Shown here piece after piece: positions 1 through 17,805 of a stretch of 64,000 nt of DNA. The notes under the pieces are model-generated. The model worked only from the letters and a program-made list of their open reading frames with translations, searched no databases and was not told the DNA's origin. Location: NCBI GenBank assembly GCA_019429005.1, contig JAHYJR010000003.1, positions 79,924 to 143,923 of the forward strand. Direction: 5' to 3'. The DNA comes from Nanobdellati archaeon. GTDB taxonomy: Archaea; EX4484-52; GLR71. The translations under genes and the position numbers were made by a program. Position 1 is the stretch's first letter. Each line of letters starts with the position of its first letter.

Positions 1-1
1 A

Positions 2-364
2 TACATTATCGAAGCAAAAGAACAATTTTACAAAAAAGACAACCTAAAACATATTATAAATAACCCAAACAATCAAGAATCTCGTGAAATAATAGTTAAA
101 AACATCAAAGGTATAGGATATAAAGAAGCAAGTCATTTTCTTAGAAACACAGGACACGGAAAATCAATTTCAATCCTTGACAGACACATATTAAAGAACC
201 TGAAAGCAAGTTATGTGATAGATGAAATACCCAAAACAATAACTAAAAAAAGATACATTGAAATTGAAAATAAAATGTTAGAATTTGCTGAATATATATC
301 AATACCAATTGAAGAATTAGATCTATTGTTCTGGTCAAAGGAAACAGGAATAATATTCAAATAG
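2..364 (+). CDS. ogg: N-glycosylase/DNA lyase, OGG2-like (3' part)
   Basis: This is the C-terminal 120 residues of a gene that begins outside the window. It carries the helix-hairpin-helix/GPD signature of archaeal OGG2 enzymes: KGIGYKEASHFLRN with the expected catalytic lysine (residue 41 of the fragment), followed by ILDRHILKNL with the catalytic aspartate (residue 60). The family removes 8-oxoguanine from DNA and nicks the abasic site. The short C-terminal tail after the HhH-GPD core fits OGG2 rather than OGG1. It ends in TAG and overlaps the convergent methyltransferase gene by 8 bp. Confidence 0.85.
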   Translation, partial: YIIEAKEQFYKKDNLKHIINNPNNQESREIIVKNIKGIGYKEASHFLRNTGHGKSISILDRHILKNLKASYVIDEIPKTITKKRYIEIENKMLEFAEYISIPIEELDLLFWSKETGIIFK

Positions 365-995
365 ATTTTGAAAATTCACAAAAATAATTATCGTGAGACC
401 TTTTACTCAACCCACAAACAAGACCTGATTCAGAGATAACCCTATCAAGTTCCCCTTCTTTAAAAAGATGATAAAACCGTTCATAAACATTATTCCACAT
501 GACATTAACATCTTGTGATTTTTCATCCTTAAAACGCTCCTGTTCATACACCCATGCACTTACAAGACCACATCCATCAGATTTTAAAACAGTCTTTATT
601 TCTAACAAAGAATCAAGTCGTGCCTTATCACTTACCATATGATGAACTGCAGCAATAAAAAGCACATTATCAAATACATCAGACTTAAACGGAAGATTTA
701 ATGCATCACAACAAATTAAATTAATTGTCACATTTTCGCACTTAGCTTTCTCTTTTACAAGCTTTAAAAGAGCTAAAGAAATATCAACACCAACAACATA
801 AAGCCCTTTTTTTGCAGCATAAATAGAATTTCGGCCGTTACCACACGCAACATCTATTAATAACCCTTTATCCAAAACATTTATAAAATCAGAACAATCT
901 TTCCATATATAACCACGTGTAGCATCAAAATGCTCTGCGATAATATCATAAGTATCTTTAATATTATCACGTAATTGATTTTTAGATTGAACCAT
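357..995 (-). CDS. Trm9/ALKBH8-like SAM methyltransferase, probably acting on tRNA wobble uridine
   Basis: A 212-residue class I methyltransferase. Motif I is DVACGNGRN (residues 48-56), followed by an acidic loop (VVGVDIS). The early AEHFDATRGYIW segment, the IAAVHHM motif and the later SAWVYEQ segment resemble the Trm9/ALKBH8 family, which methylates the carboxymethyl group on wobble uridine of tRNA. Substrate assignment is by family resemblance only, and a generic UbiE-like methyltransferase cannot be excluded. It is convergent with the OGG2 gene and divergent from the MBF1 gene. The start ATG has AT-rich, TATA-like sequence upstream and no clear ribosome binding site. Confidence 0.7.
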   Translation of the reverse strand: MVQSKNQLRDNIKDTYDIIAEHFDATRGYIWKDCSDFINVLDKGLLIDVACGNGRNSIYAAKKGLYVVGVDISLALLKLVKEKAKCENVTINLICCDALNLPFKSDVFDNVLFIAAVHHMVSDKARLDSLLEIKTVLKSDGCGLVSAWVYEQERFKDEKSQDVNVMWNNVYERFYHLFKEGELDRVISESGLVCGLSKRSHDNYFCEFSKSI

Positions 996-1133
996 AATAC
1001 AGTTTTATACTAAATATCTTATTAAATCTACTCAAAAAACAAAAACCTTTTAAAGCTTTTAGACATATAATTTTACTAACAGATAAGAAACATAATCTTA
1101 TTCTATTAATTTTACACAATCAAGGGATTATAA

Positions 1134-1664
1134 ATGACACGATGTGAAATCTGCGGTAGTGCTGCAAAAATTAGAAAAGTAAATCTTGAAGGCGGGACTA
1201 TAGAAGCATGCTTTTACTGCGTACCACGTACAAAAGTTGAAAGCCGAACTAAATTCGTTAAACGAAAACAGTTTGAAAATACAATAAACCGACCAAGAAA
1301 GGCATTGATAGATAACTATGCATCTTTAATCAAGAGTGAAAGAGAGAAAAATAATCTCACTCAAAAAGAATTTGCTCATAAAGTCGAAGAACATGAATCA
1401 ATTATTGTAAAAATTGAACAAGGTACATTCAGACCAAATTTTGCAGTTGCTAGAAAAATTGAACAATTATTCAAAATAACTCTTGTTAAACAGCTTGAAG
1501 TCAAAAAAGAGTTCGTTAAAAGCAATTACAAAAAAGATAATTACAAACCTAAAAATAAACTGGACAATATAATACATACTGAAAACAAAAAAAGACCAGC
1601 ACATAGTATAGGTTGTACAATTGCAGATTATATTAAGATAAACAAAAAACAATCTAAATCTTAA
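1134..1664 (+). CDS. Archaeal MBF1 homologue (zinc ribbon plus HTH)
   Basis: A 176-residue protein with an N-terminal zinc ribbon (CEIC at 4-7, CFYC at 26-29) and a Cro/C1-type helix-turn-helix at about residues 64-115 (TQKEFAHKVEEHESIIVKIE). This order is diagnostic of archaeal multiprotein bridging factor 1. In eukaryotes MBF1 is a transcriptional coactivator; in archaea a ribosome-associated role has also been proposed. The tail after residue 120 is lysine-rich and probably disordered. Its last 11 bp overlap the convergent DUF457-like gene. Confidence 0.85.
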   Translation: MTRCEICGSAAKIRKVNLEGGTIEACFYCVPRTKVESRTKFVKRKQFENTINRPRKALIDNYASLIKSEREKNNLTQKEFAHKVEEHESIIVKIEQGTFRPNFAVARKIEQLFKITLVKQLEVKKEFVKSNYKKDNYKPKNKLDNIIHTENKKRPAHSIGCTIADYIKINKKQSKS

Positions 1665-2109
1665 TTTTATCTATTATAATATGCGATAAATAGCCCACAA
1701 AACCAAATAAACCAGGGCTTATATTTCTATTTAATATAAAAGCTATAGCAGATAATACAATCAAAAAAATAATGCTAGATGTAAACGTATGTGTAATACC
1801 TCTATGTTTTGGTTTTAAAAACAAAATTATTTTATCTGCTGACAAAAACCATACAAATAACATAAACAGCATAAGAGGGACATCATTTACAAGTGATACG
1901 ATAATATAAATTGAAAATAATATTATTATTAAATCCCTTAACGTTTTAAACGCTTTTGAATTCTTATGATCTATATCCGGAAACAAACTTCCAATAAAAA
2001 GACATAATGCTGATAAGAAAAGAATCCCTTTATTTGCTATTGGAAAAATCGCATATAAAGCAATAAAAAACAAAAATCCAAACAATAGATGTGTCTTATA
2101 ATTAGGCAT
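1654..2109 (-). CDS. Membrane-bound metal-dependent hydrolase-like protein (YdjM/DUF457)
   Basis: A 151-residue integral membrane protein with about four hydrophobic segments. It has the motifs of the YdjM/DUF457 family: an N-terminal NYKTHLLFG histidine, GSLFPDIDHKNS after the second helix, and HRGITHTF in the middle. Family members are annotated as membrane-bound metal-dependent hydrolases, with no firmly known substrate. I chose the ATG at 2109 rather than the TTG one codon earlier. It starts 6 nt after the stop of the small zinc-ribbon gene, so the two are probably cotranscribed. Confidence 0.8.
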   Translation of the reverse strand: MPNYKTHLLFGFLFFIALYAIFPIANKGILFLSALCLFIGSLFPDIDHKNSKAFKTLRDLIIILFSIYIIVSLVNDVPLMLFMLFVWFLSADKIILFLKPKHRGITHTFTSSIIFLIVLSAIAFILNRNISPGLFGFVGYLSHIIIDKIKI

Positions 2110-2115
2110 CAAAAA

Positions 2116-2298
2116 TCAACTGAAATATCCTGTAGCATGATTCTCTTTTCCACATTTTGGACAAACATAATCAAAAGTATATTTAATCTGACTTATCATT
2201 GAACCATCAACAACAAATATTTTTTCCATCTTTGGATTATCTAATCTAAATGTATTTCCGCATTTACATTTAATATACATCTGATTTTCAACACTCAT
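2116..2298 (-). CDS. Small zinc-ribbon protein
   Basis: A 60-residue protein with two metal-binding pairs, CKCG near the N-terminus and CPKCG near the C-terminus, separated by a stretch predicted to form beta strands. The ATG at 2298 lies about 27 nt downstream of an AT-only TATA-like stretch, consistent with a leaderless message, so it is preferred over the TTG at 2307. It is followed closely by the DUF457-like membrane gene. The function is unknown; it could bind nucleic acid or be a rubredoxin-like or rubrerythrin-type ribbon. Confidence 0.6.
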   Translation of the reverse strand: MSVENQMYIKCKCGNTFRLDNPKMEKIFVVDGSMISQIKYTFDYVCPKCGKENHATGYFS

Positions 2299-2344
2299 AA
2301 TAATCAATTAGTTTTTATTATATATATATATAGTATAGAAGAAA

Positions 2345-2359
2345 GCGGGCATAACCCGC
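2345..2359 (-). terminator. Probable terminator hairpin after the small-gene cluster
   Basis: GCGGG and CCCGC form a 5-bp all-GC stem around a 5-nt loop, followed on the minus strand by a pyrimidine run (TTTCTTCT). It lies 22 nt after the stop of the 35-residue gene and is strikingly GC-rich for this genome. Confidence 0.5.
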
Positions 2360-2381
2360 AAAAAAATATGAAAAAATGACT

Positions 2382-2489
2382 TTAATAAAGCCATTTCATT
2401 GCTCTTGAACCAGTATAAACTTTATTTTTTTTATGCTGTTTCAAAAGCTGTGTCCACATTAAAGTTGGTTCTTCTGTATTTATCACCAT
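2382..2489 (-). CDS. Small protein, 35 residues, unknown function
   Basis: A short reading frame with a strong ribosome binding site (GAGGTGAT), placing the ATG 6 nt after GGTG, the spacing used by confident genes in this window. It begins 5 nt after the stop of the 81-residue gene, so it looks translationally linked. The protein starts MVINTEEPTLMWTQ and ends SRAMKWLY; it is basic in the middle with no signal peptide or membrane segment. A GC-rich hairpin follows 22 nt after the stop. I do not recognise the family. Confidence 0.55.
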   Translation of the reverse strand: MVINTEEPTLMWTQLLKQHKKNKVYTGSRAMKWLY

Positions 2490-2494
2490 ACATA

Positions 2495-2740
2495 TCACCT
2501 CGAGATTAATTGTGTTATATATTCCTGTGCATATTGCTCTTTTCGATAAGTTCCAAATGCGTAAGGAAATAATTTTTCAAGCTCATCAATACGCAACCGT
2601 ACTTTAGTTTTAATATTATGCCATTTTTTCTGATCATCCATATTCATATCCCTAAATTCTTGTAACAAAATGCCTTTTGTAGAAAATCCTTCATTTCTTA
2701 ATTCATTTTTAATCATAGCCAATTCAATAGATGTTCTCAT
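2495..2740 (-). CDS. Small helical protein, 81 residues, unknown function
   Basis: The start ATG at 2740 follows GGGGGT with an 8-nt gap and sits 2 nt past the stop of the upstream 44-residue gene. The protein is charged and probably all-helical (MRTSIELAMIKNELRNEG at the start, a KTKVRLRIDELEKLF helix in the middle), without cysteines or membrane segments. An in-frame upstream ATG at 2755 is ignored because it has no ribosome binding site and overlaps the previous gene. I do not recognise the family; position and spacing suggest it belongs to a small-protein operon. Confidence 0.6.
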   Translation of the reverse strand: MRTSIELAMIKNELRNEGFSTKGILLQEFRDMNMDDQKKWHNIKTKVRLRIDELEKLFPYAFGTYRKEQYAQEYITQLISR

Positions 2741-2742
2741 AC

Positions 2743-2877
2743 TTAAAACCCCCATTTTTGTTTCATATGCATCTCATATCTTTTCTTTTTAAAATAAGGT
2801 ACAGAGCTCCATGCGGACTCAAACCCGATTCCATATTTGGAATTCATCAATATCATCTGATCATCACTTAATTGCAT
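2743..2877 (-). CDS. Small protein, 44 residues, unknown function
   Basis: ATG at 2877 lies 6 nt after a GAGGGG ribosome binding site. The product starts MQLSDDQMILMNSKYG, has an aromatic FESAWSSVPYF centre and a basic tail ending KQKWGF. The stop is only 2 nt from the start of the 81-residue gene. The good ribosome binding site, tight spacing and shared strand with two similar neighbours support a real gene. No family is recognised. Confidence 0.5.
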   Translation of the reverse strand: MQLSDDQMILMNSKYGIGFESAWSSVPYFKKKRYEMHMKQKWGF

Positions 2878-2959
2878 ATATATCCCCTCTTAAACGAAAA
2901 AAGGTGTATTGGTTCTTTTTATGGTATAAATCCCAAAGACCAAAAGCACCTGTTATCAT
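2864..2959 (-). CDS. Possible 31-residue leader gene of the small-protein cluster
   Basis: A short frame starting MITGAFGLWDLYHKKN, preceded by AGGTGG, but with a gap of only about 2 nt to the ATG, shorter than elsewhere. It overlaps the next gene by 14 nt. It could be a leader peptide for translational coupling or a chance frame. Confidence 0.25.
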   Translation of the reverse strand: MITGAFGLWDLYHKKNQYTFFRLRGDIYAIK

Positions 2960-3188
2960 ACCACCTGGATTGGTAGGTAAAATTAGATTAACATTCTGGA
3001 TATATACCCCTTCTGGATACAAATACTACCGGTTGGGCCGGTTAAGAATTAATTACAAAATCAAAAAAAAATCACCAGATAACACATTTTCAGATTTAAA
3101 CGGTTATTAATCAAATTTAAAGATAAAAATAAAATTATCTAATCACAATATGTCAAGATATTTAAACATTAATTCTAAAAAATACATT

Positions 3189-3917
3189 ATGACTGCAGAA
3201 AACATAATCTTTTACAGTATACTTGCTGCTGTGATTACAATAGGTTCGGCAGGAATATTCCTAAAATATAAAAAATGGACACAAAATAATCTTATATTTC
3301 TTATTTCGTTTGCTTCCGGTTTTCTCCTTTCTGCCGCATTCATACATCTTATTCCTGAAGCAATTGAACTTTCAGGAAATAACGCAATGCTTTTACTTTT
3401 AATTGGTTTTTCACTCATATATGTTCTTGAAAAAACAATCATAATACATTCCTGTGCTGAAGCAAGTGAAGAACACTGTGAAGTACATAGCATGAGTAAA
3501 GGTGCAATAATTGGATTATCTATCCATTCCATATTTGATGGTATTGCAATCGGTGCTGGCTTTGAAATTAGCCAAACTATAGGACTTATTGCTGCAATAG
3601 GTGTTATCATACATAAACTTCCAGAAGGCCTATCAATTATGAGCATCATGCTTGCCGCAAAATATGATGATAAGAAAGCGATGACAAATGTAATAGGAAT
3701 TGCACTTTGCACACCACTAGGTGCTATTCTCGCATATTTATTCTTACAAAATGTATCTCAAATATTTATAGGTTACGCACTTGCATTTTCAGCTGGAACA
3801 TTCATCTATATCGCGGCATCAGACCTAATCCCACAAACCCATGAATACAAAAGTATCAATACACTTTTGATGTTTGGATTAGGAATTATTGTTTTATGGG
3901 CAATTGTTGGGATTTAA
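3189..3917 (+). CDS. ZIP-family divalent metal transporter
   Basis: A 242-residue polytopic membrane protein with the two ZIP metal-site helices: HSIFDGIAIG (helix IV) and HKLPEGLS (helix V). ZIP proteins import zinc, iron or manganese; the substrate cannot be told here. A loop with CAEASEEHCEVH may bind metal. The ATG at 3189 lies about 25 nt after an ATTTAAAC TATA-like box, fitting a leaderless message, and is preferred over an in-frame ATG at 3150 that precedes the box. It stands alone as a single-gene unit. Confidence 0.9.
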   Translation: MTAENIIFYSILAAVITIGSAGIFLKYKKWTQNNLIFLISFASGFLLSAAFIHLIPEAIELSGNNAMLLLLIGFSLIYVLEKTIIIHSCAEASEEHCEVHSMSKGAIIGLSIHSIFDGIAIGAGFEISQTIGLIAAIGVIIHKLPEGLSIMSIMLAAKYDDKKAMTNVIGIALCTPLGAILAYLFLQNVSQIFIGYALAFSAGTFIYIAASDLIPQTHEYKSINTLLMFGLGIIVLWAIVGI

Positions 3918-4018
3918 GATAATTAAATCTAAAAATACAAACCTAAAAAACAAAATTTAATAATTCTTTAAAACATATACCCAAACAGACTTATAAAGAA
4001 CCGTATAAATACAATACT

Positions 4019-5191
4019 ATGTTTGATTTCATATTACCAAATTATCATGATGGAAGTATTATCAATTTGATGAGCTCAATCTCAAATAATTTTGAACAGA
4101 AACATGAATACAAAGAACTACCTTCACTGACATCTGAAGAATTAAAGAGATCTCATAATGTCATATTGCTTGTGATTGATGGTCTTGGTTATGAATTTCT
4201 TAAAAAACAAAAAGAATCATACCTATTCGAAAATCTTAGAACTAATATTACTTCAACATTCATATCAACAACAGCTTGTGCCAACACAGCATTTAATGTA
4301 GGTTATCCGCCGCAACAACACGGATTAACTGGTTGGGATATCAACTTAAAAGAGGTTGGTTCAATAACAACAATTTTGCCTTTTGTACCTTTATTTGGTA
4401 AAGAGTCTTTAGATAAATCCAATTTTAAAATGGAAGATATCATAGATATGCCGTCATTTCATAAGAATTTTAATGCTAAATGTTTTGCATTAATCAATAA
4501 AAAACTAGCATCAAGCCAATTTACAAAAAATACATATAAAGACATGAAAATAATTCCAACAGCATCATACACAGATACATTTACAAAATTAAAAAAAATA
4601 ATTAATACAAAATCAAACAAACGAAAATTTGTTCATGCATACATAAACGATTTTGATTCTTATTCACATAATTACGGAATAAATAGCAGAACTGTTAAAG
4701 AACTATTTTTAGATTTAGATAAAAAAATCAAAACATTTTCAAAACAAATTAAAGACACAAATACAAAACTAATTATTGTTGCCGACCATGGATTAATAGA
4801 TGTCGAGATAGATAAACAAATTTGGGTTGAAAACATAGAAGGTTTAAGTGAATGTTTAACAATACCTCTTACAGGCGAATCCCGTCTTAGATATTGTTTT
4901 GTACGCCCACATAAAGTAAAAGATTTTGAAAGGATTATGAAAACAAAACTTTCTAAATATTGTTGGTGTTACAAGGGCGAAGAATTAATTAAACAAAATT
5001 TATATGGACTTGGAAAACCAAATAAAAAAATATTTGACCGTGTTGGAGATTATGTTTTAATCATGAAAGATAATTATCTCTTAAACGATAAATTAGCCAA
5101 CTTCGAAAAACCAAAAAGATCTCTGAAATCACACCACGGTGGAGTCAGTCCCGACGAAATGCTTGTACCTTTAATTGTTTTAGATTGTTAA
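4019..5191 (+). CDS. Type I phosphodiesterase/nucleotide pyrophosphatase (alkaline phosphatase superfamily)
   Basis: 390 residues. Metal and nucleophile motifs follow the superfamily order: LLVIDGLGYE (Asp54), STTACANTAF with the nucleophilic threonine near residue 84-85, NDFDSYSHNYG (Asp211/Asp213, His217), VADHG (Asp256-His257), and HHGGVSPDEM near the C-terminus. The family hydrolyses phosphodiester or pyrophosphate bonds, and the GVSPDEM ending is typical of archaeal members. No signal peptide, so a cytoplasmic enzyme on a soluble nucleotide or phosphonate is likely. A TATA-like TTATAAAG lies about 25 nt before the ATG. Confidence 0.85.
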   Translation: MFDFILPNYHDGSIINLMSSISNNFEQKHEYKELPSLTSEELKRSHNVILLVIDGLGYEFLKKQKESYLFENLRTNITSTFISTTACANTAFNVGYPPQQHGLTGWDINLKEVGSITTILPFVPLFGKESLDKSNFKMEDIIDMPSFHKNFNAKCFALINKKLASSQFTKNTYKDMKIIPTASYTDTFTKLKKIINTKSNKRKFVHAYINDFDSYSHNYGINSRTVKELFLDLDKKIKTFSKQIKDTNTKLIIVADHGLIDVEIDKQIWVENIEGLSECLTIPLTGESRLRYCFVRPHKVKDFERIMKTKLSKYCWCYKGEELIKQNLYGLGKPNKKIFDRVGDYVLIMKDNYLLNDKLANFEKPKRSLKSHHGGVSPDEMLVPLIVLDC

Positions 5192-5323
5192 TATTTTATA
5201 TTTTTGAGATTAATAACTATTCAAAAATTAAATAAATACATAATATTAAATAAAAACAAAATATTCTTGAAAATTAAATCATATACCAAATATTTAATAA
5301 ATCCCATACACAAATTTAAAAAT

Positions 5324-5494
5324 ATGGATAATTTGAAACCAGGACAAATTATCGATATGAACGGCGAAGAAAACAGCTCTCTTTTTTATAAATTATTAAA
5401 AGATGTTATTAATCAGACTAATTTTGATGAGATACAGACAAAAGTAAATAATTATCTTAAAAAATATGAAGATGATTCAACACCAAATTCTTGA
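5324..5494 (+). CDS. Small acidic protein, 56 residues, unknown
   Basis: The ATG at 5324 lies about 27 nt after a TATTTAATAAAT box, so it is read as leaderless; an upstream in-frame ATG at 5204 would add 40 lysine/isoleucine-rich residues that look non-coding. The product (MDNLKPGQIIDMNGEE at the start) ends in an amphipathic helix with NYLKKYEDD. No family is recognised. Confidence 0.45.
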   Translation: MDNLKPGQIIDMNGEENSSLFYKLLKDVINQTNFDEIQTKVNNYLKKYEDDSTPNS

Positions 5495-5643
5495 GGTTCT
5501 AAATTATAAAGAATAAATATTTAATTCAAACAATATCTCATTTTAGATTCACTTTTCCTTAAATAAATAGAACTCAGATAAACCAAACAATTTATAAAGA
5601 AATATAGATATAATGAATATTCCACAAAAAATAAGTGATATCA

Positions 5644-6177
5644 ATGGTAAAAATAAAAGGACATGAAATTAATCCGGTACTTACTAAAGTAGCATTTAAT
5701 CGTAAAGCTTTACAATTCAAGAATGATCTAATTTCAATCTTAAAAGAAATTGGTGTTGATGAGTACGACATAAAAATACCTCTAGAAGCAATCGCAATAA
5801 AAAATGTAAAAGCATCTGCAACTTGGTATGTTGATAACCATAGAATGCATTATAGTTATAATTTACAAAATAAATTTGTAGATAACCTATATGTTGTATT
5901 GAAAGTTATACAACTTGAAACAAAACAGGTTCTTTCTAAAGAAAAAACAATTAACGAATTTGTTTCAGCATTCAAAGAAGACAAAGATGTTGATAAAAAA
6001 CGAATCGAAGCAAGGAAACATCTAGGCCTCGAACATGATGAAACTGATTTTAACGTAATAAATAAAAAATACAAAGACATGGCAAGAGTATTACATCCAG
6101 ATATGCCAACAGGAGATATCGAAAAATTCAAAGATTTAAATGAAGCACATAAAACTCTGAAACGTGAATTAAGTTAA
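5644..6177 (+). CDS. DnaJ-domain protein
   Basis: A 177-residue protein whose C-terminal 55 residues form a J domain, with the diagnostic HPD motif in RVLHPDMPTGD and a preceding helix II (KKYKDMARVL). The N-terminal 110 residues are of unknown type, with predicted beta strands. J-domain proteins stimulate Hsp70 ATPase; a C-terminal J domain on a unique partner domain suggests targeting of Hsp70 to a specific substrate. The start is the ATG at 5644, 4 nt after GTGAT; the GTG at 5635 is part of that ribosome binding site. Confidence 0.8.
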   Translation: MVKIKGHEINPVLTKVAFNRKALQFKNDLISILKEIGVDEYDIKIPLEAIAIKNVKASATWYVDNHRMHYSYNLQNKFVDNLYVVLKVIQLETKQVLSKEKTINEFVSAFKEDKDVDKKRIEARKHLGLEHDETDFNVINKKYKDMARVLHPDMPTGDIEKFKDLNEAHKTLKRELS

Positions 6178-6396
6178 AAACGTCTTTTCATTAATAGAAT
6201 ATAACAACCAATAATGAAAAGTCTTAATTTTTGGAATACATAAAACATAATTTTTGAAAGTATCCAAAATGGTATACAACCAAAGAGAATATCTTATAAA
6301 TTAAATATAACTTTTTTTGAAAAAATATAAAACATATGATACAAATAGTATCGGAAGTGATTCTTAGGGAACAACAAAAAAATAAAAGAAAATAAA

Positions 6397-6759
6397 ATGA
6401 ATGCAATTTATACAGCGTCAGATATAAATCTAAAAGATATAAAAGAACTTTTTAATTATAATATAATATCTTTTAAAAGAACAACAATCATATATAAAAT
6501 AGTCGAAAACAGCTACCTATTTATCTATAAATTAGGTTCTGTTATATTTTACAATGTAGATAAAAACACACAAGAGATGATAATTAAAAAAATTAAATCA
6601 AAAATAGATACAAAAAATATTATTGATACATATTTCTATGAGACCTATAACCTATATGAAGATAAATCCTTAAAATCAAATCATATAATAGAATTCAATA
6701 GCACAAATCTTAAGAACATAAACTTTGAAAATATCAATATATTAAGCATGATTCTTGCA
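6397..6759 (+). pseudogene. DUF155/RMND1-like protein, 3'-truncated
   Basis: The first ~120 codons match the layout of the DUF155 (YagE/RMND1/Sif2-Sif3) family: a strand-rich segment with YLFIYKLGSVIFYNVDKN and a C-terminal helix entering INFENINILSMILA. In the family that helix normally continues with a QSVALxxYE-like stretch and two membrane helices. Here it stops exactly at ILA and runs into sequence that codes, on the other strand, for ribosomal protein uL14. The frame continues to 6915, but the residues after 6759 are antisense to uL14 and meaningless. A broken gene or a misassembly. Confidence 0.6.
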
Positions 6760-7058
6760 ATTTTATCAACAGCAAGGAATCTTTCAACAACTTCTTTAGC
6801 AACAATACCTTTGATTTCTTTACCCCTTGGTTCAAGTGTATCTTGTAATAATATAGCTGTATTTTCTGCAAATTTTATCCTGATTCCATTAGATCTTCTA
6901 TATTCTGCTCTTTGAGTAACTATAACAGCTTTAACAATTTCATATGCAATTTTTTGGTTTCCTTTTTTTACAGCACAGACTACAACATCACCAACACCTG
7001 CTTTAGGTTGTCTTCCACGTACACCTCTATAACCTCTAACAGATATGATTTCTAGCAT
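6747..7058 (-). pseudogene. Ribosomal protein uL14 (L14), 5'-truncated fragment
   Basis: About 103 codons clearly match archaeal uL14: LEIISVRGYRGVRGRQPKAG, AGVGDVVVCAVKKG, EYRRSNGIRIKFAENTAIL and EPRGKEIKGIVAKEVVER. The normal N-terminal ~30 residues (up to the SGAK region) are absent, because homology starts at the junction near 7058. The C-terminus also lacks its stop, reading from KIARI into the neighbouring gene fragment near 6747. There is no internal stop or frameshift, so the insertion or misjoin is recent. The functional copy should lie in the ribosomal protein operon, outside this window. Confidence 0.85.
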
Positions 7059-7748
7059 TCCATCAGGAAATTTTGGAGATATGATGGGGACAATATTAAC
7101 AAAAGAAATGGGATTACCTATTAAAAAAATCATTTGTGGCGTGAATGAGAATACAGAATTTCCACATTTCATAAACACGGAAAAATATGTTGTTTCACAG
7201 TCAAAAAATACACCTTCATCTGCAATGGATGTTTCACACCCAAGTAATTTGGCAAGATTAATTGAATTTTATGGTGGCTATATGTTTGATGAGAAAGATC
7301 CACAAACAAATAATATTATAAAACAAGAAATAATTGATAAAATGCCAAATTTAGAAACAATGAAAAAAGATATATATTCAATTGGAATTACAAATCCTAA
7401 ACATTATGAAACCATGAAAAAAGTATTTTATAAATACAACATAATCCTAGATTCTCATGGTGCTGTCGGATGGGACGCTCTTGAATATTACTTAGAAAAT
7501 AAACATAACCAACTTTCAATAATTTATGAGACACAAAACCCTGAAAATTTCCAAACGCTGTTAAAAAAGCAATTGGAATCACACCAGAAATCCCTAATAG
7601 GATGAAAGAACAAACAAAATCAAATGAAATATTTAATTCAATCCATAGCAGTCCATATAAGACTGAACAGGGTTTAAAATTAAGTAATTCTCAAATAACT
7701 AAAGCTAAATCAAAGATTAAAGATTTGTTTATAACAGTAATTATTTGA
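7057..7748 (+). pseudogene. thrC: Threonine synthase, 5'-truncated and frameshifted
   Basis: Homology to threonine synthase starts at SIPSGNFGDMMGTILTKEMG, a conserved motif in the middle of the enzyme, right at the junction with the uL14 fragment. It continues through ENTEFPHFINT and SSAMDVSHPSNLARLIEFYG, then a DSHGAVGW segment. Near 7545-7550 the frame breaks; adding one A to the AAAA run restores EKFPNAVKKAIGITPEIP and a natural C-terminus ending at 7748. The whole N-terminal PLP-binding lysine region is missing, so this copy is dead. Confidence 0.8.
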
Positions 7749-7970
7749 GAAACAACTGATTTAATCTTTCCAGAATATATTAAAAGAATTCGTTAATTTT
7801 TATCAACAATTGCAACAGTTATTGGTTTTATAGAACCCTAAGCAATTAATTGTCTCATTATTTTTTTATTTGGATAAATCATAATAATAATTAACTTCAA
7901 TCATTAAAATAGTCTAAGTTTATAACCCAATTATCAAAAAAATATATACTTTAAACGTTAATATAAAATT

Positions 7971-8420
7971 ATGAAGATTAATTTTATTTATTCACAAGTC
8001 TATTTTAGAAGTCTCAATCAACACAAGTCTGTAAAAAGAACATGGGATGAAGTCAAAAAAATAGGTACACAATTTGAAATAAAATATAAAACTGAAATAA
8101 ATAAAATTATTGATATAATCCCAAAAGTCACAAAGAAACCTTGGAGAAAAGAAAATACAGACATATATATTATCGATTGGGTCGGTCCTAGTTTTTCTCA
8201 CCCCCTCACATTAAAAGTTAGAAATGACTTACTCCTTATGCTTGTAATATTAACTCATGAACTGTTACATGACTTTTACTTAAATGAAAAAGACATAGAA
8301 CACATCGAGGAAACAATCAACAAAAATGTTGAAAATGTATTTAAAGAATTAAATATTGATGTTAAAGAACAACTACATATTCTACAAAGTTTTCACGAGA
8401 AACGATTTGGAAAAAAATGA
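7971..8420 (+). CDS. Putative zinc metallopeptidase-like protein (HELLH)
   Basis: A 149-residue soluble protein with a zincin motif, THELLHDFYL, at about residues 92-101, followed about 10 residues later by EHIEETIN, which could supply a third ligand. This HExxH arrangement resembles small M48/WSS1/SprT-like peptidases, but nothing outside the motif is recognisable. The ATG lies about 10 nt after an ATATAAAATT box with further A/T blocks upstream, so a leaderless start is likely. It is followed by the convergent RuBisCO gene. Confidence 0.5.
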   Translation: MKINFIYSQVYFRSLNQHKSVKRTWDEVKKIGTQFEIKYKTEINKIIDIIPKVTKKPWRKENTDIYIIDWVGPSFSHPLTLKVRNDLLLMLVILTHELLHDFYLNEKDIEHIEETINKNVENVFKELNIDVKEQLHILQSFHEKRFGKK

Positions 8421-8505
8421 AAAAAATAACTGATCTGATTCATAAACAACCAAATCAAACCAGATTCAAAATAAAAAATCTCTAACTATTCTCAGTCTTC
8501 CCAAC

Positions 8506-9939
8506 CTATTTGATTTCCTTTTCCTTACCTGAAAAAAACGTAATTGCCTCAGCAAGTTCAGGATGTTTTTTTGAATATTTAACAAGTTCAATACCCTTAA
8601 GATACGCATCACATGCTTGAACTAACGCACGAGCTCCAGCCTTTGTACCACTCGGATGTGCATGACACCCAGCACCCATGGTAGTTATAAAATCTACACC
8701 GCCAATTGCATCAATAAATGGTTTTAATAGTACGGGATTAAGACCGCCTGATACAATAGGACAACATTTTTTCAAACCTCTCCAACTATCATCAGATAAT
8801 ATAACATGGTGTGCAACATCTTCATGAACAAGTCTCAAAACATCTTCATCATTTTCAGGAACGTTTGCCCAGGACTGACTAAAGAAATGCCCTTGTGCTG
8901 ATAGATTCAATATATTATGTGCTGCAGTAATATCCTCTTTTTTATCACCCTTCATCTTTCCGATACCAGCCGTACCTGTATGAATTCCTGATGCACCAGC
9001 CAAACGCGCAAACTTAGACAAGACTAAAACTGAAAAACCGAATGGGCTTTCAGGCCGTGTAAATGCACCATGGGCAGCTCTATGGAAATGCAAAAACACA
9101 CCAGGATACCGTCTCCTTAAAGTCTGCACAGCCATCCAACCTGCAGTAATACCATCAATCAAAAAAGCATAACTTCCAGATTCAAAACCAGCATTACGAA
9201 TCAATTCACAACGCTCAATCATTGTATCAAAATCGGATGCAGATACATTAAAAGAATGCACTTTTTTCCGCCCAGTCTCTTTTACAGCCTTATCCATAGC
9301 TTCCTTAACATGCCGGACCATCTTATCATAAGGACAAAAATCTTGATTTGCTTGAGGTTCATCATTTTTTACAAAATCGCCACCACCAACCCAGAAATCA
9401 TAGCAGACTTCTGCATATTCGGCTGATGTAAGCCCCATCTTAGGTTTTACAATAGTCCCTAATATTGGTCTATCATATACATCAAGATATTTTCGCATAT
9501 CATCAATAGTATAACTAGGACCATCATATTGTTCAAGCATAGCTGGAGGGAACCAAAGGTCAAGTAACTTAAGAGCATCAACCTGTTTCATTCCAAGAAC
9601 ATTACCAACAACATATGTCAATATGTTCTGAATATTACCCATACGATCAAAAAGTCTCCATGGATATGCAATCCACACAAGATTTTGTTTCAAGTCAACC
9701 TTATAGACAAGTGCATTCATCTCCCTTGAAAAAGGAGTTTCAGTAGTAACTTTAAAATTGGTTCCAGTTGATGACTCTGCCGCGATTTCAGCAGCAGCTT
9801 GAAGCGTATTTAAACCATCACCAGGAATAAAATGAAAAACACATAAAAGATATTCTCCATTACGTGGATTAGATAAATCCAGATTAACATAAGCCGCTTG
9901 TTTTGAGTTCAATGATTTCAAATATTTCTTCAATGTCAT
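8506..9939 (-). CDS. rbcL: RuBisCO large subunit, form II/III-like
   Basis: A 477-residue RuBisCO. Active-site motifs present are GTIVKPKMGL, the carbamylated-lysine motif GGDFVKNDEPQANQ, FHRAAHGAFTR, IHTGTAGIGKMKGD (loop 6 lysine) and SGGLNP. YDGPSYTIDDMRKYL, YAEVCYDFWVGGGDF and GHG/AHGA-type motifs resemble form II and archaeal form II/III more than form III-b. Together with R15P isomerase (51171) and AMP phosphorylase (55840) it would complete the AMP pathway, giving two 3-phosphoglycerates from ribulose-1,5-bisphosphate and CO2. The ATG at 9939 follows GGTG by 7 nt. Loop 6 has Lys where GKMEG is usual. Confidence 0.95.
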   Translation of the reverse strand: MTLKKYLKSLNSKQAAYVNLDLSNPRNGEYLLCVFHFIPGDGLNTLQAAAEIAAESSTGTNFKVTTETPFSREMNALVYKVDLKQNLVWIAYPWRLFDRMGNIQNILTYVVGNVLGMKQVDALKLLDLWFPPAMLEQYDGPSYTIDDMRKYLDVYDRPILGTIVKPKMGLTSAEYAEVCYDFWVGGGDFVKNDEPQANQDFCPYDKMVRHVKEAMDKAVKETGRKKVHSFNVSASDFDTMIERCELIRNAGFESGSYAFLIDGITAGWMAVQTLRRRYPGVFLHFHRAAHGAFTRPESPFGFSVLVLSKFARLAGASGIHTGTAGIGKMKGDKKEDITAAHNILNLSAQGHFFSQSWANVPENDEDVLRLVHEDVAHHVILSDDSWRGLKKCCPIVSGGLNPVLLKPFIDAIGGVDFITTMGAGCHAHPSGTKAGARALVQACDAYLKGIELVKYSKKHPELAEAITFFSGKEKEIK

Positions 9940-9968
9940 TTTAAAGCACCATTTCAAGTTTTAAAAAT

Positions 9969-9987
9969 ATCATAATAATATTATGAT
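9969..9987 (-). promoter_or_regulatory. Candidate operator at the RuBisCO promoter
   Basis: ATCATAAT and ATTATGAT form an 8-bp inverted repeat around AAT, starting 30 bp upstream of the RuBisCO ATG. On the minus strand a TATAAAT box overlaps its upstream edge, so the repeat would cover the region between TATA box and transcription start, where an archaeal repressor would act. Chance is a real alternative in such AT-rich DNA. Confidence 0.4.
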
Positions 9988-10330
9988 TTATACAAATAAA
10001 TGTTATTAACAATAACACAAATTAAACATAATACATAATATTCAATTAATTTAGACAGATATAAATATATTCATACTAGCTTATCAAAAAGATATACAAA
10101 CATAAATTGCTTTTAAAAAACACAATAAAATGTAAAAATTAAATTAAAATTTAAATAGATTTTAAACTAAATAATTACTCTAAATATATTTAAAACTAAG
10201 ATTATATATATGAAAACTAAATTAACTCAATTAATAACGATTTTAATAATAACACTTTTTGCCTACATTTAGATAAAAAATCAGAACCTAACGATTCTAG
10301 ATTATAATCAACCCGACCATCCATCATATG
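9988..10330. other. AT-rich intergenic stretch without a supported gene
   Basis: Apart from the TATA-like box of the RuBisCO gene, I see only a 20-codon plus-strand frame at 10210-10272 (MKTKLTQLITILIITLFAYI), which looks like a signal-peptide remnant without a following gene. Nothing else is supported. Confidence 0.5.
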
Positions 10331-10541
10331 TCATTCTTCTAAAAACTTTTCATCTTCCATTTCTTCTAAAATACGTTTAAATTTTTTCCAAAGAAACGTC
10401 ATCATCTTAGGCATAATCTTTAAGTTTATTTACAGTTAAAAAATTCCTAATCGATAAAAAGGTATGTCCTATATGAACACCAGAATAAGTCTTTTGTGTC
10501 AATAAATATAAAATTCCACATTTAATACAAAGTTTATCCAT
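10331..10541 (-). pseudogene. Remnant of a small CxxC protein gene
   Basis: From the ATG at 10541 the frame reads MDKLCIKCGILYLLTQKTYS and continues to KLKDYA, then meets TAA. Beyond it, DDDVSLEK and, after a one-base shift in an A6 run, FKRILEEMEDEKFLEE read on as a plausible acidic C-terminus ending at 10331. One nonsense change and one A-tract shift would therefore have broken a protein of about 70 residues. The family is unknown. Confidence 0.35.
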
Positions 10542-10555
10542 AATATTATACTAAA

Positions 10556-10672
10556 TATTCCTTTTTATTAAACTATTTATAACAAAATAAACAGTATTCC
10601 TTTTTATTAAACTATTTATAACAAAATAAACAGTATTCCTTTTTATTAAACTATTTATAACAAAATAAACAG
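10556..10672. repeat. Three perfect 39-bp tandem repeats
   Basis: A 39-bp unit beginning TATTCCTTTTTATTAAAC and ending AACAAAATAAACAG occurs three times head to tail at 10556, 10595 and 10634. Each unit contains TTTATAA, which resembles a TATA box. It lies 63 bp upstream of the arsR operator. Confidence 0.95.
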
Positions 10673-10734
10673 AATTTATAAAAAATAATTAATTCTAACA
10701 ACCCATCTAAAAAGAAAAATTTATAAATATCAAA

Positions 10735-10754
10735 ATATCAATACATATTGATAT
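10735..10754 (+). promoter_or_regulatory. Palindromic operator of the arsR operon
   Basis: ATATCAATACATATTGATAT is a perfect 20-bp inverted repeat ending on the first two bases of the arsR start codon. A TTTATAAAT box lies about 27 nt before the ATG, so the palindrome covers the stretch from just past the TATA box to the transcription start. This is where a self-repressing ArsR dimer would block RNA polymerase. Confidence 0.75.
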
Positions 10755-11010
10755 GAATAAAGACTTAGCCTTAAAAATATTCAAAACGTTGGGCGAAAAA
10801 ACACGATTTAAAATAATTGAAACCTTACTAGATAAAGAACTTTGCGCTTGCGAAATCCCAAAAATTATAAACAGAACACAAAGCAATACATCTATGCACC
10901 TTACAAAACTGCAAGATCTAGATATGATTAAATCAAGACGTGATGGCAAAAAAAGATTATATTCAATAAAAAATGAAAATATCAAAAAAATTATGAAGAT
11001 GATTAAATGA
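10753..11010 (+). CDS. ArsR-family transcriptional repressor
   Basis: 85 residues of winged-helix fold: LALKIFKTLGEKTRFKIIETLL, then ELCACEIPKI, then a recognition region QSNTSMHLTKLQDLDMIKS and a wing with RRDGKKRLYSI. The ELCxC motif is the metalloid-sensing Cys pair of ArsR proteins. It probably represses its own operon through the perfect palindrome at its start and is released by arsenite, antimonite or a thiol-reactive signal. The start appears leaderless. Its stop overlaps the next gene by 4 nt (ATGA). Confidence 0.9.
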   Translation: MNKDLALKIFKTLGEKTRFKIIETLLDKELCACEIPKIINRTQSNTSMHLTKLQDLDMIKSRRDGKKRLYSIKNENIKKIMKMIK

Positions 11011-11240
11011 AAATTGAAATACTTGGAACCGGTTGTAATAATTGCTTAAAACTTGAAGAAAACGCAAAAAAAGCATTAAAAGACATAAATAAAAAAGATG
11101 TAGAACTCATAAAAATTACAGATATAACAGAAATACTAAGGTACGGTATAATGTCAACCCCTGCAATAATTATTGATGGCGAAATCAAAGCATATGGCAG
11201 AATCCCTGATATTGACGAGATTAAAACATGGGTAAAATAA
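11007..11240 (+). CDS. Thioredoxin-like redox disulfide protein
   Basis: 77 residues matching the small thioredoxin-fold family with an N-terminal active site, here GTGCNNCLKLEENA (CxxC at about residues 10-13), and the cis-proline region STPAIIIDGEIKAYGR. Such proteins commonly sit between an arsR regulator and a DUF318 permease. It could reduce the permease or the metalloid substrate. It overlaps arsR by 4 nt, and the permease starts 1 nt after its stop. Confidence 0.9.
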   Translation: MKIEILGTGCNNCLKLEENAKKALKDINKKDVELIKITDITEILRYGIMSTPAIIIDGEIKAYGRIPDIDEIKTWVK

Positions 11241-11241
11241 A

Positions 11242-12195
11242 ATGATTGATTTATTCTATCCATTTCAATGGGTTGCAAACAATATTACAAATAGACTTAA
11301 TCTTGAAGGACACATCGCAGATAGTGTAAACTTCATAATCTATGACGTAATAAAAATATTTTTTTTACTTATTGTGATGATATTCGCAATTTCATACATT
11401 AGAAGCTATATCACACCTGAAAAAACAAGAACAGTTATAGGCAATAAAAAAGGTCTTCGCTATCATTTTCTAGCATCAATAACAGGTGTCTTCACACCAT
11501 TTTGTTCATGTTCATCAGTACCATTATTTATTGGTTTTATTGAAGCTGGCGTTCCTTTAGGCGTAACATTCTCATTTTTAATAACAAGCCCGCTTGTTAA
11601 TGAAGCCGCAATTGCGATTCTTTGGGCAACATTCGGACTTAAATTAACAATAATATATGTGATATCTGGAATATTAATCGGTGTTATCTCGGGTTACATA
11701 ATTGGACTTTTAAAAATGGAAAAATATGTTGCAAGTTTTGTCTATGACATTAAAATGATGAAAATTAAAGAAGAAAAAAAGACACAAAAAGATAGAATCA
11801 AATATGCTAAAAAAGAAGTCAGAAATATTGTATCAAAAGTATGGCTATACATCATAATAGGTGTCACATTAGGTGGCTTATTCCACAGTTTTGCTCCAGA
11901 AGGTATACTTGAAAAATATGCAGGAAACAGTATCATTGGAGTACCCATCGCAACATTAATAGGTATACCATTATATTCAAATGCAATCGCAATGATACCA
12001 ATCATTGAGAGCCTTGTTGGGAAAGGATTACCACTTGGAACTGCCTTAGCATTCCTTATGGCTGTAACCGCATTATCATTACCAGAAATAATTATATTAA
12101 AAAAAGTCCTTAAAAAAGAATTAATTGCTGTTTTTGTAGGAATAACAGGATTTGCGATAATGATTACGGGGTACTTGTTTAATTTTATCGTTTGA
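11242..12195 (+). CDS. Permease of the DUF318/ArsP-like family
   Basis: A 317-residue membrane protein with about eight hydrophobic segments and the signature TPFCSCSSVPLFIGF near residue 90, plus a related SNAIAMIPIIESLVGKG motif in the second half. The CSCSS motif marks the DUF318 permeases that include organoarsenical exporter ArsP. It is the third gene of an arsR-thioredoxin-permease operon, which supports efflux of a metalloid or related toxic compound. The exact substrate is not determined by sequence. Confidence 0.85.
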   Translation: MIDLFYPFQWVANNITNRLNLEGHIADSVNFIIYDVIKIFFLLIVMIFAISYIRSYITPEKTRTVIGNKKGLRYHFLASITGVFTPFCSCSSVPLFIGFIEAGVPLGVTFSFLITSPLVNEAAIAILWATFGLKLTIIYVISGILIGVISGYIIGLLKMEKYVASFVYDIKMMKIKEEKKTQKDRIKYAKKEVRNIVSKVWLYIIIGVTLGGLFHSFAPEGILEKYAGNSIIGVPIATLIGIPLYSNAIAMIPIIESLVGKGLPLGTALAFLMAVTALSLPEIIILKKVLKKELIAVFVGITGFAIMITGYLFNFIV

Positions 12196-12285
12196 TAAAA
12201 TAATTATAAAAATTATATCAAATTTTACAGAAACTGTTATAAAGTTATCTTTACTAAGTAATAACATATAAACTAGGTGTTAATT

Positions 12286-13761
12286 ATGATTAAAGAAATC
12301 AAAATAAATAATAATAATAAATCGTTAATGGGTACCCCCAAAGAAATGAGACTCATTCTTCAAAAAATTGGATATGATAATGTTATTGTTTATGGATACG
12401 CTGGTACGCTTATTGCAGATAGTATCGATGACGAAACTAATGAAAAAATGAAAGATTTTAACAGAAAAAAATTACTATCTAACGTAACATACCATGAAAC
12501 ACCGATAGGTACAATATATAACACAGAGGGTAGTCTAAATAAACATGCAATTGCAGATGACCTTAAAATAGCAGTACTTGATAAAGAAATAGAATCTCAA
12601 GAACTTGTTGCCACAATAAAAACAGTTGCAGATCAAGTTTCAAAATATATTGGTGATGAATTATTAACAGGAACTGGTACTTTATCAGCAATAAGTGCCT
12701 ATTTTAGCAGCACCCTTACAGACGAAGATATTAATAAATATCCAGAATATTTTAATGAAAAAAATGGACAGATAACACTTTCTGAAGAAGGAAACAACAT
12801 GCTAAATATACTTAAAGACAGTTGGGATTATCTTCCACGAAATCTACGTTCTGCATGTAAAATGAATATAAAACCATATCTTTTAGAAGTATTTAAAGAT
12901 GTATCTGAAAATATACCCGTACAACTGGATAAATTCCAAGATTATATTCAAAAAGAATTAACATCAGAAACAATCAAGAAAAAAATCGACCAAGATTCTA
13001 AATTATTACGAAAATTAATTGATGATGGATATTATTGTGATTATTTTATTAATACAGATTATGATGAATTAATAAAAATCATAGAAATGGATCAAAATAA
13101 TTTAATCAACAATGAGACTTTTAAGAAAATAAAAAAATCAATACCTGTAAGACATCTAGACTCACAAAAATACCAACGACATCAAAAGGATAAAAAATAT
13201 TATGAACTAGAACAAGAACATAAATTATATAACGAATGGGGAAAAAAAATAAAAGATACAATAATGTCAATTGAAACAAACCAAAAAATAATCGAAGGAC
13301 ATGGTATAGACCCATTAAAACAACTAAAAATGCTTGAAGATACAGGATATATTTTTTTAAGAGAAGATGATAAAAAAATAAATATATACAAAGGACAAAA
13401 CTTTAATCTGCTTAATGAGGATAACACATCTTTCTGTCCAATAGGTCTTTCAGATAAATGGGATTCATGGAAAATTGAAAGACAGGGAAATATAACAATT
13501 TTAACAAAATATTTTAAAAATGTAAATGATAAATTAATAAGAATCTCAGTTAATTCATTAGGAAAATATAGCGTTGAAGGTAATGATCTAACTGTTTTTG
13601 ATGAAAATGTTAAAAAGGAATTAAATCTTGTTGAAGAAGTTATAAATTATAATCTTCCTAAAAACAAACGCAAAACTTTAGATTGGACAGAATATAATGA
13701 ATCACAACCAAAAACAAATACAATAAAACCTGTTAAACAAATCAAAAAACAATTATTTTAA
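12286..13761 (+). CDS. Large protein of unknown function, 491 residues
   Basis: The start ATG lies 6 nt after GGTG. The protein is charged, lysine/asparagine-rich and mostly helical, without cysteines of note, signal peptide or membrane segments. An N-terminal part (residues 1-60) has predicted strands (NVIVYGYAGTLIADSIDDE), the middle is helical, and a late segment (FCPIGLSDKWDSWKIERQGNITILTKYF) looks like a beta-rich module. I recognise no family. It stands alone between the permease and a broken MazG gene. Confidence 0.6.
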   Translation: MIKEIKINNNNKSLMGTPKEMRLILQKIGYDNVIVYGYAGTLIADSIDDETNEKMKDFNRKKLLSNVTYHETPIGTIYNTEGSLNKHAIADDLKIAVLDKEIESQELVATIKTVADQVSKYIGDELLTGTGTLSAISAYFSSTLTDEDINKYPEYFNEKNGQITLSEEGNNMLNILKDSWDYLPRNLRSACKMNIKPYLLEVFKDVSENIPVQLDKFQDYIQKELTSETIKKKIDQDSKLLRKLIDDGYYCDYFINTDYDELIKIIEMDQNNLINNETFKKIKKSIPVRHLDSQKYQRHQKDKKYYELEQEHKLYNEWGKKIKDTIMSIETNQKIIEGHGIDPLKQLKMLEDTGYIFLREDDKKINIYKGQNFNLLNEDNTSFCPIGLSDKWDSWKIERQGNITILTKYFKNVNDKLIRISVNSLGKYSVEGNDLTVFDENVKKELNLVEEVINYNLPKNKRKTLDWTEYNESQPKTNTIKPVKQIKKQLF

Positions 13762-13798
13762 TAATAAACGACCAATACAAATATTATAAGGTAAGATT

Positions 13799-14098
13799 AT
13801 AGATATTAAAGAAGCTCAAGACACAGTTTATGAACACTTAGTAAAGATATGTTATACAAAAAGCGAGACAACACCAACACATTCATTTTTGCATCTTGTT
13901 GAAGAAGTGGGTGAAGTCTCAAGAACATTGTTATACAAAGAAACAGAACGTGTTAACTTCAAAAATAACACAGATCCAGGTAAACTTGAAGATGAGATTG
14001 CTGACATATTCTGGCAGACACTCAAACTAGCGTAATATCTAAAAATAGATCTTGACCAAGCATTCATCAATAAGCTAGAAAAAAATAGGAATAAATAA
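13799..14098 (+). pseudogene. MazG-like nucleotide pyrophosphohydrolase, interrupted
   Basis: The reading frame gives IKEAQDTVYEHLVK, HLVEEVGEVSRTLL and LEDEIADIFWQTLKLA, the EExxE and DExxD metal motifs of the MazG/dUTPase-2 superfamily, which hydrolyses NTPs to NMPs. An in-frame TAA at 14033 interrupts it, after which YLKIDLDQAFINKLEKNRNK completes a natural C-terminus. The start also lacks ATG: GGTA is followed 5 nt later by ATA. Either the gene is dead or it starts at AUA and makes a truncated product. Confidence 0.75.
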
Positions 14099-14182
14099 AA
14101 CTCAAAAACAGATAAACAAATATCTAATAATTTATCAAAAAAATAAACCCAATATTAAATATATAACATAACAAATATTATC

Positions 14183-14833
14183 ATGGAACAACAAAAAATT
14201 ATCAATAAAACTATTGATTTTGTAAAAGAAACATTACAAGATACAGAAAGTGGCCACGACTGGTGGCATACATATCGTGTCTGGAAACTATCTAAACACA
14301 TTGCAAAAACAGAAAATGCAGATAATTTTATTGTTGAATTAGGCGCACTATTACATGATATAGCAGATTCAAAATTTCATGATAAAAACGAAAATATTGG
14401 ACCCAAAAAAGCAGAAGAATTTCTAAAAACCTTAAACTTAGACAGTAATATTATAGAACAGATCAAGAATATTATAAGTAACATATCTTTCAGAACACGG
14501 AATGAGACAACATTCAAATCAGTAGAACTTGACATTATACAAGATGCAGACCGCTTAGATGCACTTGGAGCTATCGGTATTGCAAGAGCCTTCAATTTCG
14601 GTGGCCATAAAAACAACACAATATATAATCCCTATATAAAACCAAATACTAACATGACAAAAGAAGAATACAAAATGCGAGATAAACCGACAATAAATCA
14701 TTTCTATGAGAAACTCTTATTATTAAAAGATCTTATGAACACAAAAGGCGGACAAAAAATTGCAGAACAAAGACACGCATTTATGGAACAATACCTTACC
14801 GAATTCTATAATGAATGGGAAGGTAAATCATAA
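14183..14833 (+). CDS. HD-domain phosphohydrolase (YedJ-like)
   Basis: 216 residues with the HD metal motifs in order: GHDWWHTYRVW (His), LLHDIAD (His-Asp) and IIQDADRLDALG (Asp). The following RAFNFGG and the C-terminal HAFMEQYLTEF segments fit the YedJ/YpgQ-type HD hydrolases, which remove phosphates from nucleotides or related compounds. It belongs to a run of nucleotide-metabolism genes (MazG remnant, 5'-nucleotidase, UMPH-1 remnant). Confidence 0.85.
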   Translation: MEQQKIINKTIDFVKETLQDTESGHDWWHTYRVWKLSKHIAKTENADNFIVELGALLHDIADSKFHDKNENIGPKKAEEFLKTLNLDSNIIEQIKNIISNISFRTRNETTFKSVELDIIQDADRLDALGAIGIARAFNFGGHKNNTIYNPYIKPNTNMTKEEYKMRDKPTINHFYEKLLLLKDLMNTKGGQKIAEQRHAFMEQYLTEFYNEWEGKS

Positions 14834-14884
14834 AGATATTAAAAAAACATAAAGCTTTTAAAGAGAATCCTATTAAATAAAATC

Positions 14885-15424
14885 ATGAAAATCTTAGTTG
14901 ACATGGATGGAGTTATTGCAGATTTCGAAAAAGGATTCCTGACCAATTTCACAGAAAAATACCCTGAAGAACAATTCATACCACTTAATAAAAGAACAGA
15001 GTTCAAACCACGAGATCAATACACAATAAAACAAAAACCTCTTGTTGAAAGCATATACAACGCACCTGGTTTTTATACGTCCTTACCGCCTATTGATGGT
15101 GGACTTGACGCATTAAAAGAAATTTCAGATAAAGGCCATAATGTATTTATTTGTACATCGCCACTTTCAAACTATCAAAATTGTGTTTCTGAAAAATATC
15201 AATGGGTAGATAATAACCTTGGTATAGATTGGACTAAAAAAATTATTATTATAAAAGATAAGACATTAATTTCAGCAGACCTACTTATCGACGATAAACC
15301 CGAAATAACAGGTTTAGAAACGCCATCATGGGAACATATAATATATGACCAACCATATAATCAAAATGTTAATTATAAAAGACGGATTAATTGGGCGAAT
15401 TATAAAACTATTTTAGACCTTTAA
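14885..15424 (+). CDS. 5'(3')-deoxyribonucleotidase-like HAD hydrolase
   Basis: 179 residues of the NT5C family. HAD motif I is DMDGVIADFE (Asp6, Asp8), motif II lies in ICTSPLSNYQNCVSEKYQWV and motif IV in DLLIDDKPE. The spacing and the TSPLSNY segment are characteristic of NT5C enzymes, which dephosphorylate (deoxy)nucleoside monophosphates. A TATA-like box (CTTTTAAAG) lies about 30 nt before the ATG. It may work with the HD hydrolase upstream in nucleotide turnover. Confidence 0.85.
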   Translation: MKILVDMDGVIADFEKGFLTNFTEKYPEEQFIPLNKRTEFKPRDQYTIKQKPLVESIYNAPGFYTSLPPIDGGLDALKEISDKGHNVFICTSPLSNYQNCVSEKYQWVDNNLGIDWTKKIIIIKDKTLISADLLIDDKPEITGLETPSWEHIIYDQPYNQNVNYKRRINWANYKTILDL

Positions 15425-15558
15425 AAACGTACTCTTGTAACACACTAACCTATAAACCAAAATTACTTTTTTCTTAAAAACACAACTAAATCAACATAAA
15501 ATCACTAATTTTATTATAATATATAATATATTTAAAATTTACTCGACATCATAACATT

Positions 15559-16424
15559 ATGAATCCAGATATAATCATATCTAATCCAAAAAAACTTGAA
15601 ATTCTTAAAAATAAAATAGCTTTAGATGGAATAAAAAACATACATATTATCTCTGATTTTGACAGAACCTTTACAAAAGCATTTGTTAATAGACAAAAAG
15701 TACCGTCTATGATTTCAGAATTACCTAATGGAAATTACTTAACAGACGATTATGCAAAAAAAGCTCATGCACTTTTCAATAAATACCATCCTATTGAAAT
15801 AGATATAAACATAACCGAAGAAAACAAAAAAAAGCTATGCATACTTGGTGGACTGAACATTTCAACCTTCTTATTGAATCTAAACTAAACAAAAAAGATC
15901 TTGATAAAGTAATAACCTCCGAAAATATCTGTCTTAGAGATGGCTCATATGAATTCATAAAAACCTTACATACAAATAATATACCGCTTATCATCATGTC
16001 TTCAAACGGTCTTGGTGGCGATACAATTTCAATGTTTCTTGAAAAAGAAAAAAGATTATATAATAATATTCACATAATATCAAACACATACATATGGGAT
16101 AAAGATGGATTTGCTATTGATATAAAAAAAACAATAATACATGTTGCAAACAAAGATGAAACCTCAATAAAAGATTATCCTGTTTTTAATAAAATAAAAG
16201 CAAGAAAAAATGTTATCCTTATTGAAGATTCCCTAACAGATGTTGATATGGTTAAAGGCTTTGATTATGACAATATTATAAAAATAGGATTTATAAATGA
16301 CAATATAGAAAAACATCTTGATTCGTACAAAAAAACTTTTGATGTTGTAATACTAAATGATTCAGATATGAGTTATATAAATCAATTATTAGATTATATA
16401 ATAAACAACAAAAAAGTCAAATAA
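15559..16424 (+). pseudogene. Pyrimidine 5'-nucleotidase (UMPH-1 family), frameshifted
   Basis: Two overlapping frames together make one protein: the first part has HAD motif I IISDFDRTFTKAF and FNKYHPIEID, the second THTWW-type TWWTEHFNLLIES, LRDGSYEF, MSSNGLGG and LIEDSLTDVDM. This order matches cytosolic 5'-nucleotidase III/UMPH-1. The frames join at an A8 run near 15825-15834; nine A residues would restore a continuous protein of about 288 residues. The rest of both halves looks intact, so this could be a recent mutation, a sequencing error or a slippage-rescued gene. Confidence 0.75.
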
Positions 16425-16433
16425 AAAACAATT

Positions 16434-17453: not shown

Positions 17454-17553
17454 ATTATGGTTTCATCTAAGATAAAATATAAATATATCTATACTTTAAT
17501 AAACCGAACAACAAACCAAACAGATTTAAATCAACTAACACCAAAAAAACAAC

Positions 17554-17805
17554 ATGGAAACACTCATAATTGGATTTATAGCATCAATCCTTACAACAAT
17601 ATCCTTTATACCTCAAATTGTAACAATATATAAAACTAAAGACACTAAAAGCATCTCACTAAAAATGTACTTATTATTCTGTTCAGGTATAACATTATGG
17701 TTAATCTATGGACTACTAAAAAAAGATTTGCCAATAATTTTAGCAAATAGTATCACTTTAATATTATCTCTAATAATATTATCTATGAAATTAAAATATA
17801 AATAG
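17554..17805 (+). CDS. SemiSWEET/PQ-loop sugar transporter
   Basis: 83 residues, three membrane helices and the SemiSWEET signature: SFIPQIVTIYKTKDTKSIS with the PQ motif in helix 1, then LWLIYGLLKKDLPIILANSIT. These half-size transporters dimerise to move sugars or related small molecules. The ATG lies about 27 nt after a GATTTAAAT box, so it is probably leaderless. It ends in TAG and is convergent with the membrane HTH gene. Confidence 0.85.
   Translation: METLIIGFIASILTTISFIPQIVTIYKTKDTKSISLKMYLLFCSGITLWLIYGLLKKDLPIILANSITLILSLIILSMKLKYK

Follow-up and report, generated by a model that had tools for sequence, protein, structure and literature searches.

An antisense piece of the uL14 gene between two broken genes in an archaeal genome: a probable scar of DNA repair

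The window analyzed here is a whole stretch of 64,000 nucleotides, positions 79,924 to 143,923 of contig C8 in a draft genome (G000) of 1.08 Mb and 15 contigs. This genome presumably belongs to EX4484-52, a candidate phylum of the DPANN archaea in the GTDB naming. As shown in Table 1, two broken genes on the forward strand flank a piece of the ribosomal protein gene uL14 (rpl14), which runs antisense to both of them. An earlier sequence-only reading had described this locus as three broken genes fused. All three parts are present, but the locus is described more simply as two broken ends with a single scrap inserted between them.

Table 1. Features of the locus in window coordinates.
Feature	Positions	Strand	Evidence
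Truncated gene of uncertain identity (weakly DUF155-like); 117 codons starting at ATG, own stop absent	6397-6747	+	ORF list; PF02582, 17.6 bits
Partial, decaying uL14 (rpl14) copy, codons 28-131	6748-7059	-	305/312 identity to own gene; PF00238, 82.4 bits
Right join, stretch ATGATTTC(A/T)AGCATT common to antisense uL14 and thrC	7045-7059		Edge alignment
Threonine synthase (thrC), C-terminal half, no start, frameshift near 7551	7045-7748	+	TIGR00260; alignment with intact ThrC

The left open reading frame had been read as a gene that stops exactly where uL14 starts. Instead, the frame stayed open for another 56 codons inside the antisense uL14 sequence, as far as a TGA at 6913-6915. It had also been called DUF155-like. 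A weak match to this family (PF02582) is indeed present, but the label is hard to uphold. When the left piece was searched alone, its match (E 0.004) missed the gathering cut-off of 27 bits and covered profile positions 1-68 of 174, which is half of the profile at most. Membership in DUF155 is thus doubtful from the profile score, although a truncated member would score low anyway. No further DUF155 member was found at an E value of 0.001 in the same 34 genomes of the order and phylum or in 31 further genomes. The stump had no convincing relatives in the order and gave no significant match in a PDB sequence search. We therefore call it the stump of an uncertain gene, because its DUF155 match is below the curated cut-off and convincing relatives are absent from the order. 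The left gene was not seen next to thrC in any case, either by tblastn of the stump on the related loci that were compared or among the neighbors of the three nearest archaeal thrC genes.

Sought elsewhere in the genome, an intact uL14 gene was found on contig C13. This gene is complete, encodes 132 amino acids and lies within a ribosomal-protein gene cluster. The antisense piece aligned with it without gaps. The piece begins only with codon 28 of the gene and ends ahead of the final codon and the stop, and it contains neither frameshifts nor internal stops. Its homology to the uL14 family was confirmed with the Pfam profile. The edges of the piece are sharp, as had been claimed for the junctions: beyond the match, identity fell at once to background, with 30% and 25% in the two 60-nt flanks. 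The last 15 bases of the piece are common to thrC, so its exact end is ambiguous.

The genome has two uL14 copies in all, of which only the one on contig C13 is intact. We compared the copy number across 33 further species of the same order. The order relatives included Candidatus Aenigmarchaeota archaeon ex4484_52 (NJDR01000008.1; G022 below) and Nanohalarchaeota archaeon B72_G9 (QMVA01000019.1; G029). A uL14 match was found in 32 of the 33 species. None of the 33 had a second full copy, and the extra matches were pieces at contig ends. For this order, then, a truncated extra copy of uL14 is as unusual as the sequence-only reading had supposed.

To the right of the piece lies a remnant of thrC. 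It matched NCBIfam TIGR00260 with 63.6 bits over profile positions 187-329 of 340, which is homology to the C-terminal half. The natural C-terminus is retained at 7745 and is followed by the stop at 7746-7748. The reading frame is not intact, with the N-terminal half absent and the frame shifted within the remaining part. The thrC sequence starts at the right edge of the uL14 piece, where MISSIPSGNFGDMM aligns with MIASIPCGNFADMM of the G022 ThrC; the uL14 fragment does end where threonine synthase begins, just as had been noted. The remnant is 49% identical to ThrC of G022. The nearest ThrC proteins, which are 53-61% identical, come from other DPANN archaea and some bacterial bins.

No second thrC was found in the genome, and no thrC was found in other members of the family. 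A search of the genome for homoserine kinase (thrB) gave no match over the cut-off. Two weak matches on C8, at 140507 and 143023, probably represent different members of this kinase superfamily. In G022, thrB and thrC are neighbors.

Short words shared at the joins had also been reported. This was right in one respect, as antisense uL14 and thrC share the stretch listed in Table 1 at the right join; the other word, ATTCCATCAGG, is thrC sequence. No extra bases lie at this join. To examine the similarity, we took the thrC of G022, a gene uninvolved in the event. Its segment GAAATGATTGCAAGTATT and the antisense uL14 segment GATATGATTTCAAGCATT are alike at 15 of 18 bases. A similarity of 15/18 or better was reached by only 8 of the 540,148 position pairs of uL14 and the G022 thrC (1.5e-5). 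The right join therefore probably arose where the two sequences happened to be similar. A short similarity beyond chance at a join and a donor that is retained elsewhere in the same genome, here uL14 on C13, are both features of a templated insertion. With four other, more distant thrC genes, 13, 11, 9 and 9 of 18 bases were alike. This smaller excess is as expected if these genes have diverged further from the lost sequence.

The uL14 piece differs from the intact gene at seven positions. One of them (7053) lies inside the stretch common to thrC and need not be a uL14 mutation. At the other six positions, G/C in the gene is always replaced by A/T in the copy (6/6). Four of these six changes alter the protein (H66Y, V68I, P122L and G125D), which contradicts the claim that uL14 is otherwise undamaged. 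Gly125, now Asp in the copy, is Gly in 25 of the 25 order relatives aligned there. The position of Pro122 is occupied by Pro, Ser or Ala in relatives.

Without constraint, 76% of changes are expected to be protein-altering. For functional genes we used five pairs of uL14 genes with 3-8% divergence, in which 7 of 100 changed codons were protein-altering (0/11, 4/12, 1/21, 2/24 and 0/32). Six substitutions in the copy are few, but the difference between 4/6 and 7/100 has a Fisher exact p of 0.0009. Constraint on the copy is relaxed relative to functional genes. Because of this difference, the copy looks like a drifting pseudogene, and its pattern of change looks like neutral, AT-biased decay.

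The piece also stood out when we compared 284 kb of the genome with itself. No other pair of distant loci was nearly identical; the remaining close repeats were local. When window positions 1-20000 were compared with the whole genome, only the uL14 match and one hairpin were found. The hairpin is long and spans 52 bases, at 19317-19368 of the window, which agree at 85% with their reverse complement. At 10556-10676 of the window, a unit of about 39 bases occurs three times in tandem, with 98% similarity between the copies, directly upstream of an ORF at 10753 that was named by eye as a small ArsR-like regulator. Near the start of contig C13 (L032) there is a 789-bp direct duplication with 93% identity (1038-1826 and 2139-2927).

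To the left of the locus, at 4019-5191 of the window, there is an ORF of 390 amino acids, phosphodiesterase- or alkaline-phosphatase-like by eye. All eight other genomes of the family lacked a relative of this gene, and synteny with the family was not obtained. Because the ORF is absent from these eight genomes, the stretch around it may be a variable region.

We think it likely that the locus, as reconstructed from one assembly, is a real genomic scar, in which part of rpl14 was copied by template switching during microhomology-guided repair of a break. In such an event, a break would occur, or a fork would stall, within the left gene, within thrC or between the two. Joining of the ends would be guided by microhomology, with the cell's own rpl14 gene serving as a temporary template. 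Starting at one of the broken ends, synthesis would extend over about 300 nt of rpl14, in antisense orientation to the neighboring genes, and the end would then be rejoined to thrC at the short stretch that resembles uL14 by accident. In the process, the left gene would lose its 3′ part and thrC its 5′ half. The product would encode nothing useful and would drift under AT-biased mutation. We infer that one event lies behind both joins and that a deletion accompanied the insertion.

Elements of this route have been described in other archaea. In Haloferax volcanii, microhomology-mediated deletions are reported to arise upon cutting of the genome (PMC7521656). In Saccharolobus islandicus, the primase PriSL is reported to pair strands over microhomologies of a few bases and to continue synthesis across breaks in the template, and substitutions in this species are biased from GC to AT (PMC12019639). 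The archaeal primase PriSL would be one candidate for the enzyme.

The sequence-only reading had left the choice between a recent multi-step rearrangement and an assembly chimera. The results agree with a rearrangement followed by decay, and a chimera is unlikely. In a chimera of assembly or amplification the joins would be absent in the cell, and uL14 of this strain or of a co-occurring strain would have been misplaced between two pieces. We consider this improbable, mainly because the differences of the copy are decay-like in their share of protein-altering changes and in their uniform direction. A chimera within the same strain predicts a copy identical to the gene, but six differences were seen; a chimera with another strain predicts mostly silent differences, which is not what the six are. 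It is true that the locus is known from a single assembly and that the exact 24-mer of the right join occurred in no other record of the genome and viral contig collections. Short similar stretches at joins are also found in amplification chimeras. On the other hand, no word of at least 15 nt around either join recurred in the sampled rest of the genome, so the words at the joins are shorter than the overlaps on which assemblers normally merge.

Two other explanations accept the joins as real. The left gene and thrC may have been broken earlier by other events, with the uL14 piece as a later, unrelated insertion into dead DNA. The lack of a thrB match over the cut-off, which means that thrC may have been useless earlier, and the separate frameshift in thrC both speak for this order of events. 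However, thrC homology starts exactly at the right edge of uL14, and at the left edge the frame of the left gene has not yet closed, which fits an insertion that was itself the break. In addition, about 2% divergence in the insert and one frameshift with no stop in 700 bases of thrC are compatible with one age. We regard such stepwise decay as rather unlikely. Far less probable, in our view, is a trans-acting antisense RNA, which would use the left stump's promoter and would tune or dampen uL14 expression. Some 300 nt of a + strand transcript over the piece would be complementary to uL14 mRNA, with a 98% match. Such a copy was found in one genome only, however, and its changes resemble drift.

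A repair scar of this type is a known kind of event and involves no new gene, system or kind of element. As an example it is clean: a fragment of a distant gene was captured, probably in the course of DNA repair, by an uncultured archaeon of the DPANN, and the donor, the insert and one similarity patch can all be identified. The scar could hint at the repair route of these reduced genomes. It is also a warning to annotators, since a duplicated marker gene, uL14 for instance, can pass for contamination. Otherwise it is ordinary genome decay.

The closest comparison is with the templated insertions, or filler DNA, of eukaryotes, which arise in polymerase-theta joining and T-DNA integration. These likewise place a short copy of a distant sequence between broken ends; the donor stays where it was, and a join shows short similarity. 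In contrast, the scar is archaeal and its insert of about 300 nt is longer than typical filler DNA. Archaeal microhomology joining by PriSL in Saccharolobus islandicus is likewise guided by short similarity; the outcomes given in the available part of that report are deletions and small indels, and capture of 300 nt of another gene is not among them (PMC12019639). Pseudogenes and gene remnants in reduced prokaryotic genomes show the same truncation, frameshift and unconstrained AT-biased change. Unlike ordinary pseudogenes, the scar includes part of a second copy of an essential gene that is normally single-copy and that the genome retains in intact form.
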